A stretch of DNA of 63,440 nucleotides. Origin: an uncultured bacterium. Its GTDB lineage: Bacteria > Krumholzibacteriota > Krumholzibacteriia > LZORAL124-64-63. The notes under the pieces were generated by a model, which saw only the letters and a list, made by a program, of their open reading frames with translations, was not told where the DNA came from and searched no databases. The stretch lies in contig CAIWHK010000037.1 of NCBI GenBank assembly GCA_903912525.1, positions 1 to 63,440 of the forward strand, written 5' to 3'. Positions 45,307 through 52,104 of the stretch are shown here, piece after piece (the stretch's first letter is position 1; every line of letters begins with the position of its first letter). The translations under genes and the position numbers were made by a program.

Positions 45307-46532
45307 GATCCCTGCGCGAAATGTCGGCTCAGGTGCAGGGCGACTTCCGCCGCGTGGTGCTGGCCACGCTGTGCTTCGGCGCGGTGTCGGGGATCATTTC
45401 CTCGACGTTCAACAACTACCTGTCGGACGTGCACGGCTTCGACGCCAGCAGCCGCGGCTGGCTCGAGCTGCCGCGCGAGGCCCCGGGCTTCATCATCTTC
45501 GGCGTGGTTGCGCTGCTGCTGATGCGGCTGCGGGAGAGTCGCATCGCGGCGCTGGCGATGGTCGCGACGATGGCCGGCTCGCTCGGCCTGGGCTGGTTGG
45601 CGCCCGGCCCGGCGCTGCTCGTGCTGTGGACCATCGTCTGGTCGCTGGGCGATCACATCATCTTCGCGGTGGAAGGCCCGCTGGGCCTGAAGCTGGCGAA
45701 GGAAGGCGCCGAGGGACGGCGACTGGGCCAGCTCGGCGGCGCGCGCAACCTCGGCGTCATCATCGGGGTGTCGGGCGTCTGGCTGACGGCGAAGTTCCTG
45801 GGCGACCGCTACGACCTGTTCTACCTGGGCGGCGCGCTCTGCGCGCTGGCGGCGGGGTTCTTCTACCTGCGCGTGCAGATCGGCAAGGGGGAGCCGCCGT
45901 CGCGCCGGCTGGTGTGGCGCCGCGAGTACGGCATCTTCTACGCCATCAGCGCGCTGTTCGGCATCCGCAAGCAGATCTTCCTGGTCTTCGGCACCTGGGT
46001 GCTGGTGTCCATGCACCACGTGTCGGTCTCGACCATCGCGCTGCTGTACTTCATCGCCTCGGCGCTCGGCGTGCTGATGCGGCCGCTGCTGGGCGACGTC
46101 ATCGACTGGCTGGGCGAGCGCATCGTGCTGGCGGCCGACGAGCTGCTGCTGCTGGGCGTCTGCCTGGTCTACGCGTTCGCCTCGGACCTGCTGCCGGCGC
46201 CGTGGGACCTGTGGGTGCTCTTCGGCGCCTACATCCTGGACAACGTGCTGTTCGCGCTGCGCGTGGCCCGCACCACCTACCTGAAGAAGATCGCCCTGGA
46301 TCCGTCCGACATCACGCCGACGATTTCAATGGGTGTCACCATCGACCACGCCGTGGCGATGACGCTGCCCATCCTCTCGGGCTGGCTCTGGGAACGCTAT
46401 GGCCACCAGTGGGTTTTCCTGCTGGCTGGGGCGCTGGCGCTGGCCGGATTCTTCGTCTGCCTGCGGATCCGGGTGCCCGCGCGGCCGGTCCCGGGCGTGG
46501 CGGCTGGCGCGGCCGGCGCCGGCGGTGCATAA
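45303..46532 (+). CDS. MFS transporter of unknown substrate
   Basis: 409 residues with about 12 spans. The start is TTG 45303, which overlaps the malQ stop (TTGA) and has GGGAG six bases upstream; the ATG at 45321 lacks a ribosome site. Features: SGIISSTFNNYLSDVHGFDASSRGWLELPREAPGFIIF, LGQLGGARNLGVIIGVSGVWL, and FGIRKQIFLVFGTWVLV. No close named family is recognised. Position between malQ and an exonuclease-like lipoprotein suggests sugar or muropeptide uptake; a role importing muropeptide sugars for the NamZ/MurU-AmgK module is speculation. Confidence 0.82.
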   Translation: MRSLREMSAQVQGDFRRVVLATLCFGAVSGIISSTFNNYLSDVHGFDASSRGWLELPREAPGFIIFGVVALLLMRLRESRIAALAMVATMAGSLGLGWLAPGPALLVLWTIVWSLGDHIIFAVEGPLGLKLAKEGAEGRRLGQLGGARNLGVIIGVSGVWLTAKFLGDRYDLFYLGGALCALAAGFFYLRVQIGKGEPPSRRLVWRREYGIFYAISALFGIRKQIFLVFGTWVLVSMHHVSVSTIALLYFIASALGVLMRPLLGDVIDWLGERIVLAADELLLLGVCLVYAFASDLLPAPWDLWVLFGAYILDNVLFALRVARTTYLKKIALDPSDITPTISMGVTIDHAVAMTLPILSGWLWERYGHQWVFLLAGALALAGFFVCLRIRVPARPVPGVAAGAAGAGGA

Positions 46533-46569
46533 TATCCCAGTGAAAACCCGCCGCCCTGGAGGCCCCGGA

Positions 46570-47520
46570 ATGTTCGAAAACCGCCGTGGGATGATGCTGC
46601 CGCTCGGCCTGATGGCCGGGTTGCTGGCGCTTGTCCTGATGCTGGCCGGGTGCGGCAAGACGGAGACGACGACACCGGAGCCGGTGGGAAATCCGTTCGT
46701 CCCGGCCCAGGTGGGCACCGACAGCACGCTTGAAGTGATGACCTGGAACATCGAGGTCTTTCCCAAGGCCGGCACGACGGTCGATTGGGTGCGCCAGATC
46801 ATCGAGGGCGTGCGCCCGGACATCGTTGCGGTCGAGGAGATTTCCAACACGGCTTCGTTCGATGCGCTGTCGACCGCGCTCGGAGGCTGGGACGGCGAGC
46901 ATGCGAGCAGCGATGCCTATCAGAACCTGGGCTTCCTGTATCGCGTCGATGGCGGTCTCGAAGTCATGTCCATCTACGAGATTTTCGCTTCGAACGACTA
47001 TTCGCGCCCGTTCCCGCGCGCGCCTTACGTCCTGGAAGCGAACTGGAACGGGACGCCCATCGTCGTGATCGCCAACCACCTGAAGGCGAGCGGCAACGGC
47101 GTCATGGATCCCAGCGACCCCTGGGATGAGGAAACGCGCCGCCGTGACGCCTGCATCCTGCTGGCCGAGTACATCAAGACCGAGCTTGTCGGCAAGCGTG
47201 TCTTCGTCGTCGGCGACATGAACGACGAACTGACCGACGCCACGGTCAACAACGTCTTCCAGTCCTTCCTGGACGAGCCGGACACGTTCCGTTTCGCCGA
47301 CATGGCGATTGCGCTCGGGCCCAGCGACGACTGGTCGTACCCGACCTGGCCCAGCCACATCGACCACATCCTGGTGACGGAGCCCCTGTTCGCCGCGCTG
47401 TCGGGACCTGCGGCGCTGACGACCGTCGTTCCCCTGGGCGCCTACATGCCCAACGGCATGGGCAAGTACATGACCGAGGTCAGCGACCACCTCCCCGTCA
47501 TCACCAGGTTGCAGCCATGA
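46570..47520 (+). CDS. Endonuclease/exonuclease/phosphatase-family lipoprotein
   Basis: 316 residues. A lipobox LAGC with Cys28 follows the signal segment (LMAGLLALVLMLAGC), so it is exported and lipidated. The EEP fold shows EVMTWNIEVFPKAG, IVAVEEIS (metal Glu), VIANHLKASGNG, VVGDMNDELTDATVN, WPSHIDHILVT and SDHLPVITRL, the full set of metal and catalytic residues. The substrate could be extracellular nucleic acid, phosphoinositol or another phosphodiester. GGAGG at 46558-46562 precedes ATG 46570. It overlaps rlmI by four bases. Confidence 0.88.
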   Translation: MFENRRGMMLPLGLMAGLLALVLMLAGCGKTETTTPEPVGNPFVPAQVGTDSTLEVMTWNIEVFPKAGTTVDWVRQIIEGVRPDIVAVEEISNTASFDALSTALGGWDGEHASSDAYQNLGFLYRVDGGLEVMSIYEIFASNDYSRPFPRAPYVLEANWNGTPIVVIANHLKASGNGVMDPSDPWDEETRRRDACILLAEYIKTELVGKRVFVVGDMNDELTDATVNNVFQSFLDEPDTFRFADMAIALGPSDDWSYPTWPSHIDHILVTEPLFAALSGPAALTTVVPLGAYMPNGMGKYMTEVSDHLPVITRLQP

Positions 47521-48744: not shown

Positions 48745-49092
48745 TCAGCCCAGTTCGTCCTCGTACACATCCCCGTTGAACCCGACCAGCACGGTCGTGC
48801 CCCGCACGACGACGGGCGCGCGCAGGTTGCCGGTCGATCCCAGCATCAGCTCCATCAGTTCGGCATCGGCGGGCTTGTTCCTGGTGAGGTCGAACACCGC
48901 GACCTTGCTGCCCTTCATCACGAGCAGCCGCTTGGCGTTCTTCACCAGCTTGCGGGCATCGTCGGCGCCCAGCTTCTTCGCGGCGCTGACGGTTTCACTG
49001 CTGTCGAGGCCATGATTCGCAAGGAACCCCTGCGATCGGGTGCAACTCGTTCAGCCGTTGCGGTGGTAGTACCAGTCGATGCGCTTGGCCAT
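48745..49092 (-). CDS. Selenoprotein: thioredoxin-fold ArsC/glutaredoxin-like protein with U-T-S-C redox motif (UGA = Sec14)
   Basis: Reading TGA at 49053-49051 as selenocysteine gives one 115-residue protein from ATG 49092: MAKRIDWYYHRNG-U-TSC, then TRSQGFLANHGLDSSETVSA, KKLGADDARKLVKNAKRLL and on to VYEDELG. AGGAGG (49106-49101) lies 8 bases before that ATG, and the frame is open on both sides of the single TGA. U14-x-x-C17 sits right after the first strand, where thioredoxin-fold redox sites lie; Pro93 in LRAPVVV is in the cis-Pro position. Without Sec decoding only a 66-residue fragment from 48945 remains, starting mid-fold with no ribosome site. A bSECIS-like hairpin follows the UGA. It lies 25 bases after thyX on the same strand. 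Substrate unknown. Confidence 0.85.
49018..49034 (-). promoter_or_regulatory. Bacterial SECIS-like hairpin
   Basis: In the mRNA, 16 bases after the UGA, CGCAGG pairs with CUUGCG (one G-U) around the loop GGUUC. An apical loop carrying GU about 23-28 bases from the UGA is the layout SelB needs in the E. coli formate dehydrogenase SECIS. Confidence 0.6.
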
Positions 49093-49117: not shown

Positions 49118-50050
49118 TTACCAGGGGATGGACAGGTTCAGGTCGCGCAGCTTCTGCTCGCATTCCGTGCGTTCGCGGTTGCGGACGTAGCCGCCCGCCG
49201 ACGCCGGCTTCAGCCAGCCCGCTTCGCGCGCCACGGCGCAGGCCTTGTCGCGGTCGCCCGAGCCGACCGCCGCCATGACGGCATTCTCGAGCCGAGAGTA
49301 CGACACCGCTCCCAGCCGGAAATCCTCGAACGCTTCCCACGTCAGCGGGACCCAGCGCGCGACGACCTCGCGCCCGATCACGGTCGCGTAGTCGCGGATC
49401 TCCTTCTGCGCGTGCGGGTCCATGCGCAGGGCCAAAAAATGCAGCAGGTTGTGGAGGTCCACCTTCCAGTAGGCCTCGGTGTAGGTGCACAGCGGCAGGT
49501 CCTTGCGGGCCTGCTCGCGCGCGACGCCGGCGGCCAGGCGCTCGTCGTAGACGCGGCGGGCGTGCGCCTGCAGTTCCTGTTCGGAAGCGGTGAAGCCGGC
49601 GCCCGCGGCCGCGTCCAGGAAGCCGGCGCTGCCCTGCTTGTTGTCGCTGCTCTGCCCGCGCCAGGCGTCCGGCGCGGTGCGCTGCGCGGCGTCATTGACG
49701 ACCGAATAGCGCGAACTGCACTCGTTCACAGAGGCCGTCCGATGCCGGATCCACTGCCGCCACGCGTCCATGGGCACGCGCACGTGCAGCTTCATCTCGC
49801 ACATCTCGAACGGCGTCGTGTGGCGGTGCTGCAGCAGGTAGCGGATCAGGCCGCGGTCATCCGAGACGGCCTTCGTGCCGGCGCCGTAGCTGACGCGGGC
49901 CGCCTGGACGATGGCCGCATCGTCGCCCATGTAGTCGACCACGCGCACGAGGCCGTCGTCGAGCACCTTGAACGGCACGCCCAGGATGTCGTCCAGGGCG
50001 GCGACCCGGGGGCGGGGGAGCTTTTCCGGCTGCGCGTCCATGATCCTCAC
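49118..50050 (-). CDS. thyX: FAD-dependent thymidylate synthase
   Basis: 310 residues. The ThyX signature RHRTASVNECSSRYS spans 102-116 (RHRxxSxNxxSxRY), preceded by HRHTTPFEMCEMKLHVRVPMDAWRQW and followed by a conserved TEAYWKVDLHNLLHFLALRMDPHAQKEIRDYA. It makes dTMP with flavin and NADPH, replacing ThyA, and fits with the B12-dependent reductase in the same genome. The GTG at 50050 overlaps the hutU stop (GTGA); an ATG at 50041 is the alternative. It is slightly longer than common bacterial ThyX (~220-250) and belongs to the long form. Confidence 0.95.
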   Translation of the reverse strand: MRIMDAQPEKLPRPRVAALDDILGVPFKVLDDGLVRVVDYMGDDAAIVQAARVSYGAGTKAVSDDRGLIRYLLQHRHTTPFEMCEMKLHVRVPMDAWRQWIRHRTASVNECSSRYSVVNDAAQRTAPDAWRGQSSDNKQGSAGFLDAAAGAGFTASEQELQAHARRVYDERLAAGVAREQARKDLPLCTYTEAYWKVDLHNLLHFLALRMDPHAQKEIRDYATVIGREVVARWVPLTWEAFEDFRLGAVSYSRLENAVMAAVGSGDRDKACAVAREAGWLKPASAGGYVRNRERTECEQKLRDLNLSIPW

Positions 50051-52104
50051 TTCGCCTTGAAGGCTTCATCGACGGCCTGGTTGACGAGATCATCGTCCGC
50101 GTGCGCGGGCATCGTCACCGTCAGGCCCGGTTCCTGGTCCATGGCGCGCCGGATGGCGAACTCGGCGCCCTCGTTGCGGGCCCACGCCCGGCGCGCGACG
50201 CCGTTGTTCACGTCCCAGTGCAGCATCTGGTGCAGCCGGCGGTCGGCATCGGCGCTGCCGTCGAGCAGCATCCCGAAGCCGCCGTTGATCACTTCGCCCC
50301 AGCCGACGCCGCCGCCGTTGTGCAGCGACACCCACGTGGCGCCCCGGCAGCCGTCGCCCAGGAAGTTCTGTACGGCCATGTCGGCGCAGAACATCGACCC
50401 GTCGCGGATGTTGGCCGTCTCGCGGTAGGGGCTGTCGGTGCCCGAGACGTCGTGGTGGTCGCGGCCGATGACGATCGGGGCCGAGATCTGCCCGCGCATG
50501 ATCGCCCGGTTGAACGCGGCGGCGATGGCGCGCCGGCCCTCGGCGTCCGAGTAGAGGATGCGCGCCTGCGAGCCGACGACCAGGTTGTTGACGCCCGCCT
50601 GCCGGATCCAGCGCAGGTTGTCGCGGTACTGCTGTGAGGTCTGCGCCGGCGCCTTGGCGGTCATGATCTCGATGACTTCCTCGGCGATGCGGTCGCTCAT
50701 GGCCAGGTCGGCGGGGTCGCCGCTGGTGCAGACCCAGCGGAACGGCCCGAAACCGTAGTCGAAGCACGACGGGCCCATCACGTCCTCGACGTAGCTGGGA
50801 TAGCGGAAGCCGCCGTCGCCGCGCGCCACTTCACAGCCGGCGCGGTCGCACTCGAGCAGGAACGCGTTGCCGTAGTCCCAGAACCGCGTACCGCGCGCCG
50901 CACAGCGGTCGATGGCCGCCAGGTGGCGCCGCAGCGAGGCCTGCACCCGGTCACGGAAGTCCGCGGGATCGCTCGCCATCAGCGCGTTGCTCTCCTCGAA
51001 GGACAGCCCGGCGGGGTAGTAGCCGCCGGTGTACGGGATGTGCAGGCTGGTCTGGTCGCTGGCCAGGTCGATCGTGACGTCGCTGTCGGCCAGCGCTTCC
51101 CACAGGTCGACGATGTTGCCCTGATAGGCGATGGCGACGGCCTCACCGCCGGCCCGGGCGCGCCCGACGCGGTCCAGCAGCTCCGGCAGCGAGGTGTAGA
51201 CCTCGTCCACCCAGCCCTGGGCCTTGCGCTTGGCGACGGCGGCGGGGTTGATCTCGGCGATGACGCCCACGCAACCCGCGATGACCGCGGCCTTGCCCTG
51301 CGCGCCGCTCATGCCGCCGAGCCCGCTGCTCAGGTAGACGCGGCCGGCCAGCGTCGGCGCATCCTGCGGCAGGTCCAGGTACAGGCGCCCGGCGCCGAGG
51401 ATCGCGATCGTCGTGCCGTGCACGATGCCCTGCGGCCCGATGTACATGTAGCTGCCGGCGGTCATCTGCCCGTAGTTCGACACCCCGAGGGCGTACATCG
51501 TCGTGTAGTCTTCCACGCGCGAATGGCTGGGCACGACCATGCCGTTGGTCACGACCACGCGCGGCGCGTCCGGGTGGCTGGGGAACAGGCCCAGGGGATG
51601 GCCGGAATAAACGGGCAGCGTCTGCTCGTCGGTCATCCGCGTCAGGTACTGCATCGTCAGCAGGTACTGCGCCCAGTTCTGGAAGACGGCGCCGTTGCCG
51701 CCGTAGGTGACCAGCTCGTAGGGGTGCTGCGCCACGGCGGGGTCCAGGTTGTTCTGGATCATCAGCATGATGGCGGCGGCCTGCGGGCAGGCGGCCGGGT
51801 ACCAGGACAGGGGGCGGGCCTGCATGGCGTACGCGGGCCGGAAGCGGTGCATGTAGATGTGGCCCGACTCGGCCAGCTCGGCGGCGAACTCGGGGGCCAG
51901 TTCGGCGTGCAGGCGCTCGGGGAAGTAGCGCAGGGCGTTGCGGACAGCCAGGCGCTTCTGCCGGTCATCCAGCGTCAACGGCCGGCGGGGGGCCCGGCTG
52001 ATCGCAGGGTCCTCCGCCGGCCGTGGCGGCAATACATCGGGTATGCCCGCTCGCAGCTGATGTTGGAACTCGGTCATGCGGGCAGCGGTCGTCTCGGGAC
52101 TCAC
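50047..52104 (-). CDS. hutU: Urocanate hydratase (long form)
   Basis: 685 residues, longer than the ~555 of E. coli-type HutU and similar to the long form found in eukaryotes and some bacteria. The NAD-binding and active-site segments are YSGHPLGLFPSHPDAPRVVVTNGMVVP, SSGLGGMSGAQGKAAVIAG, QTSLHIPYTGGYYPAGLSFEE, and HHDVSGTDSPYRETANIRDGS with VSLHNGGGVGWGEVINGGFGM. It converts urocanate to imidazolone propionate in histidine degradation. The start is GTG 52104 with GGAGG at 52116-52112. No hutH, hutI or hutG is adjacent, so histidine catabolism is scattered. Confidence 0.95.
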   Translation of the reverse strand: MSPETTAARMTEFQHQLRAGIPDVLPPRPAEDPAISRAPRRPLTLDDRQKRLAVRNALRYFPERLHAELAPEFAAELAESGHIYMHRFRPAYAMQARPLSWYPAACPQAAAIMLMIQNNLDPAVAQHPYELVTYGGNGAVFQNWAQYLLTMQYLTRMTDEQTLPVYSGHPLGLFPSHPDAPRVVVTNGMVVPSHSRVEDYTTMYALGVSNYGQMTAGSYMYIGPQGIVHGTTIAILGAGRLYLDLPQDAPTLAGRVYLSSGLGGMSGAQGKAAVIAGCVGVIAEINPAAVAKRKAQGWVDEVYTSLPELLDRVGRARAGGEAVAIAYQGNIVDLWEALADSDVTIDLASDQTSLHIPYTGGYYPAGLSFEESNALMASDPADFRDRVQASLRRHLAAIDRCAARGTRFWDYGNAFLLECDRAGCEVARGDGGFRYPSYVEDVMGPSCFDYGFGPFRWVCTSGDPADLAMSDRIAEEVIEIMTAKAPAQTSQQYRDNLRWIRQAGVNNLVVGSQARILYSDAEGRRAIAAAFNRAIMRGQISAPIVIGRDHHDVSGTDSPYRETANIRDGSMFCADMAVQNFLGDGCRGATWVSLHNGGGVGWGEVINGGFGMLLDGSADADRRLHQMLHWDVNNGVARRAWARNEGAEFAIRRAMDQEPGLTVTMPAHADDDLVNQAVDEAFKAK

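Follow-up and report, generated by a model that had tools for sequence, protein, structure and literature searches.

A selenocysteine-encoding member of the ArsC-related family NF041106 next to thyX in a Krumholzibacteriota genome

The selenoprotein gene and its neighbours

The window, i.e. the whole stretch of 63,440 nucleotides analysed here, is contig 37 of a 4.29-Mb source genome that is 97.8% complete and falls together with Candidatus Krumholzibacteriia. Its minus strand carries an ArsC family selenoprotein gene (48745-49092) coding for 115 amino acids with selenocysteine (Sec) at codon 14. Re-reading of the sequence confirmed the frame described in the first-pass annotation. The ribosome-binding site AGGAGG (49106-49101, minus strand) is followed by an 8-nt spacer and the ATG at 49092. 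A single in-frame TGA is met at codon 14 (49053-49051, minus strand) and the frame then stays open to the stop codon TGA at 48747-48745. The Sec codon opens the active-site motif U14-T-S-C17 of the 115-residue product. A conventional ORF listing (table 11) yields just a 66-aa ORF with a GTG start (48945-48745), which agrees with the earlier remark that an ordinary gene caller would keep only 66 residues. Start, UGA and end of the selenoprotein gene are all conserved among relatives, and the AGGAGG element is kept in the same-genus loci L041-L043 and also in L045.

The gene for the flavin-dependent thymidylate synthase, thyX (49118-50050, minus strand), is located directly upstream, separated by a 25-nt gap, and is itself preceded by the urocanate hydratase gene hutU (50047-52104, minus strand). 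Both neighbours had been named in the annotation and were identified by Pfam matches (PF02511 with an E-value of 4e-50 for ThyX; three urocanase domains for HutU). Adjacency of thyX and the selenoprotein gene is kept in L041, L042, L043, L045 and L022. The order hutU-thyX-selenoprotein gene occurs within the genus and in the other-genus loci L022 and L045 (listed for L042, L043, L045 and L022). A laccase-like gene separates thyX from the selenoprotein gene in L023, and in L044 the intervening gene is oppositely oriented and has an ARPP-1 domain; the gap in L025 and L068 is similar in size to that of L023. Neither thyX nor any other shared partner was seen in the flanks of the loci from other phyla (L058, L059 and L060), so that the link to thyX is lineage-specific and weak as functional evidence.

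Two side observations concern these surroundings. The thyX gene of L044 (193-1746, plus strand), from a Candidatus Krumholzibacteriia MAG, is interrupted in frame by some 197 additional codons (CLAEGTEI...HNFIANGIVTHN, then S); this insert looks intein-like and is absent from the thyX gene of the window. Near the selenoprotein locus, the window also carries a plus-strand gene (46399-47520) whose product looks like an endonuclease/exonuclease/phosphatase; genes of this Pfam family are likewise found near the selenoprotein gene in L025 and L027.

Family membership and conservation of the UGA codon

The read-through protein matched the NCBIfam profile NF041106 (ArsC_rel_Se_1, "ArsC family (seleno)protein"; curated cut-off 85 bits) with 117.9 bits and an E-value of 2.8e-34. 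The alignment covers profile positions 1-107 of 107 and spans the TGA, in line with the coherent translation that had been noted on both sides of this codon. The Sec residue of the UxxC motif is in the same place and the length is the same; nothing fundamental distinguishes the window protein from the family, although UxxS or UxxA takes the place of this motif in some relatives within the lineage. Pfam gave marginal matches to ArsC (PF03960, 25.1 bits, cut-off 24) and glutaredoxin, and the score for the Spx/MgsR family TIGR01617 (29.8 bits) is below the cut-off of 75.05.

The family is already known. A 2026 review of the prokaryotic selenoproteome (PMC13188914) contains an entry 'Arsenate reductase-like protein, NF041106, UxxC' credited to Zhang and Gladyshev 2008. 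In the table of that 2008 GOS survey, 'Arsenate reductase 2, cd03032, UxxC' is given with 42 Sec sequences and a last column of 238, taken here as Cys homologues (PMC2398784). The window gene, a bona fide selenoprotein gene, is therefore a further representative of a known family and does not define a new one, and the expectation of a new redox protein was not borne out. Other ArsC-type selenoproteins (arsenate reductase, UxxS, Sargasso/GOS) share Sec at the ArsC catalytic position and differ in subfamily and motif. One genome belonging to the same class contains a further ArsC-type frame whose catalytic position is occupied by TGA (L039:1501-1794 and upstream; KVLCKST-U-STCRKAKSF). This frame scores 32.1 bits against NF041106, below the cut-off, and probably represents another ArsC-like selenoprotein subfamily.

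TGA is found at the Sec codon in all 18 close relatives (18/18). GTDB contigs were scanned with six peptide patterns, none of which includes residue 14. This retrieved 27 loci with the same upstream segment, and every one of them has TGA at the Sec codon (27/27). In nearly all 27, the residues upstream of Sec read M-A-K-R-I-D-W-Y-Y-H-R-K/N-G. The part MAKRIDWYYHRNG, which the first-pass annotation had placed upstream of the UGA, is thus present in homologues; they do not start behind this codon. Across 80 genomes of the phylum, 19 matches to NF041106 exceeded the cut-off, each with one internal TGA. The suggested search for homologues with Cys at position 14 found none among these matches or the 27 GTDB loci: every member found has Sec. 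A search of a plasmid collection gave no match. Judged from sequence, the full-profile match and the TGA at the same codon in 27 of 27 relatives place the UGA frame far beyond chance.

Decoding of the UGA codon

The source genome encodes the complete Sec machinery. A check for selA, selB, selC and selD, proposed in the annotation, detected all four, with selC as a tRNA-Sec with the anticodon tca (UCA) and a SelB of 646 aa that contains SelB winged-helix domains. The selD gene (L011:1501-2415, minus strand) has its own in-frame Sec TGA (FAKSSGUAAKLS) and is an independent Sec gene of the same genome. Of the 58 genomes in the set of relatives, 56 have selA, including all those with an NF041106 match above the cut-off (17/17).

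A putative bacterial SECIS hairpin, CGCAGGGGUUCCUUGCG (49018-49034, minus strand), starts 16 nt after the UGA and exposes a G-U in the apical loop. The stretch CGCAGGRGTNYCTTGCG behind the UGA is nearly unchanged across 18 relatives; judged by their MAG labels, these belong to at least three phyla. Codons within the hairpin are frozen: Q21 is CAG, L24 is CTT and A25 is GCG in 18/18 sequences each. Elsewhere in the gene, conserved positions have a mean codon entropy of 1.06 bits (47 positions), and CTT accounts for only 5 of 127 codons at eight other Leu positions. A second group of eight sequences has the stem type GCGTCCAAGTTCCTGGACGC, shifted in register by one base, and keeps the G-U in the same loop position. 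At this distance behind a TGA, the hairpin motif occurs a single time in the genome, namely here. The folding energy of the window sequence was not significant compared with shuffles (minimal element: -11.2 kcal/mol, z -1.2; 58 nt: z -0.6). Pair counting over the 18 sequences and the eight in the shifted register revealed no signal of stem covariation, since the stem is (nearly) invariant in the former and displaced by one base in the latter. Only one compensated pair was present in the second group, a change from G-C to C-G in L034. At gathering thresholds, Rfam gave no match in the window. The case for this putative SECIS element is built on its position, its loop and the frozen codons. No CGCAGG hairpin motif follows the UGA in most Planctomycetota members (L052, L055, L058, L060-L064, L067), which seem to have a SECIS of another form.

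A single TGA in an otherwise open frame, one base away from TGC or TGT, might also reflect a sequencing error, or a Cys gene that acquired a nonsense mutation, with a pseudogene or the 66-aa downstream ORF as the outcome. However, independent assemblies from the same genus, the same family and other phyla always have TGA at the same codon, downstream codons have accumulated synonymous changes with residues conserved at the family level, and none of the NF041106 members retrieved has Cys at position 14. We rejected this explanation on the strength of the TGA shared by all relatives, and its probability is negligible. If an altered code or a suppressor tRNA led to insertion of a different amino acid at the UGA, with no selenium involved, the frame would be identical at the sequence level. 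Against this speak the full Sec machinery with its UCA tRNA-Sec, the TGA that serves as the gene's own stop and the hairpin of frozen codons at SECIS distance, which together make such a read-through highly improbable. The proposal that the UGA encodes Sec in a small redox protein is upheld by the Sec machinery, the family profile running across the TGA and the conservation of this codon.

Predicted fold, function and proposed mechanism

An AlphaFold model calculated from 38 family members (pLDDT 92, pTM 0.85) has its strands and helices arranged in a thioredoxin-like order. The best PDB matches in Foldseek were Spx, YffB and ArsC-related proteins, with TM-scores of only about 0.54. When the single protein was used for a sequence search, the putative arsenate reductase 2m46 and Spx were the closest structures; with the family profile, these were Spx proteins. 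Model and Spx alignments agree with the ArsC/glutaredoxin-like fold suggested in the first-pass annotation, including P93 in the cis-Pro position. Residues W7, Y9, R11, G13, U14, G61, G85, G88, L90, R91, A92, P93, G104 and F105 are invariant in the 38 members, a pattern that fits an active site of the thioredoxin-fold type formed around U14 and cis-Pro P93. With Spx and the YffB/ArsC-related branch (1z3e, 1rw1, 2kok), the window protein shares the thioredoxin fold as well as L-R-x-P and G-F/Y-N near the C-terminus, and the CTSC of Spx at helix 1 aligns with UTSC. It differs in its length of 115 aa, Sec in place of Cys, Ala before the cis-Pro and a score below the Spx/MgsR cut-off. The second Cys of the motif is variable: UTSS occurs in L027, L028, L029, L037 and L044, and UTSA in L045, all with Sec kept. 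Sec is more strongly kept than the second Cys.

These similarities raise two functional alternatives. The protein could be a true arsenate reductase with Sec replacing the catalytic Cys, involved in arsenic detoxification. The distant resemblance in sequence and fold to ArsC-family proteins (the PF03960 match just over its cut-off) and the name 'arsenate reductase-like' used in the review (PMC13188914) are in favour of this. The best profile relatives, however, are Spx and not ArsC, and the flanks examined contain thyX/hutU or unrelated genes and no ars genes. In plasmid ArsC, the residue before the cis-Pro is the arsenate-binding Arg94. This position, the one of the three ArsC Arg positions that the comparison covered, is Ala92 next to the invariant R91 in 38 of 38 members. 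With Ala instead of the expected Arg in all members, arsenate reduction becomes less likely, and we regard it as unlikely overall. The second alternative, an RNA polymerase-binding redox sensor of the Spx type in which a selenenylsulfide switch replaces the C10-C13 disulfide, would fit the alignment of UTSC with CTSC and the position of Spx as best PDB match by both profile and fold. In contrast, the TIGR01617 score falls so far short of the Spx/MgsR cut-off that a role as RNA polymerase regulator is less likely, and the Arg that Spx has beside the cis-Pro is replaced by Ala. The second Cys is Ser or Ala in six relatives, so that a U-C switch is not general. We consider the sensor somewhat less probable even than arsenate reduction.

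The overall best explanation, in which we have very high confidence, is that SelB and Sec-tRNA decode the UGA to give a 115-residue thioredoxin-fold selenoprotein of the Spx/YffB/ArsC branch. Established are the gene, the decoding machinery, the family membership, the predicted fold and the constraint at the RNA level. Sec insertion in vivo, catalysis and the kind of substrate are what we infer from them, as follows. The hairpin starting 16 nt downstream would direct SelB and Sec-tRNA to the UGA at codon 14, and helix 1 of the product would carry Sec at its N-terminus. There, the selenolate may reduce an oxidised or disulfide substrate and pass through a selenenyl intermediate, which Cys17 would resolve where it is present; in the Ser/Ala relatives, an external thiol would have to do so. 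As the second Cys is variable and Sec is kept, an external thiol can presumably serve for this resolving step. The protein most likely acts as a Sec-dependent thiol oxidoreductase. A more specific idea is that members of the Krumholzibacteriota type are a distinct one-selenol variant of the family, with the resolving Cys lost in several genera (UTSS, UTSA) and the gene tied to thyX, which would suggest a dedicated external-thiol Sec reductase serving thymidylate/folate metabolism; this is speculative and has a low probability.

Our literature searches found no substrate for the NF041106 family and no paper pairing a selenoprotein with Krumholzibacteriota. Likewise, no earlier report was found of the Cys loss with Sec kept, as in the six relatives, or of thyX directly upstream, as in two genera. 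The gene adds a clear Sec-encoding gene to the poorly studied phylum Krumholzibacteriota and is a further case of selenoprotein genes being truncated by ordinary gene callers. Relatives that have naturally lost the resolving Cys, together with the frozen SECIS codons, offer material for studying how Sec functions in a single-selenol Spx/ArsC-like fold.
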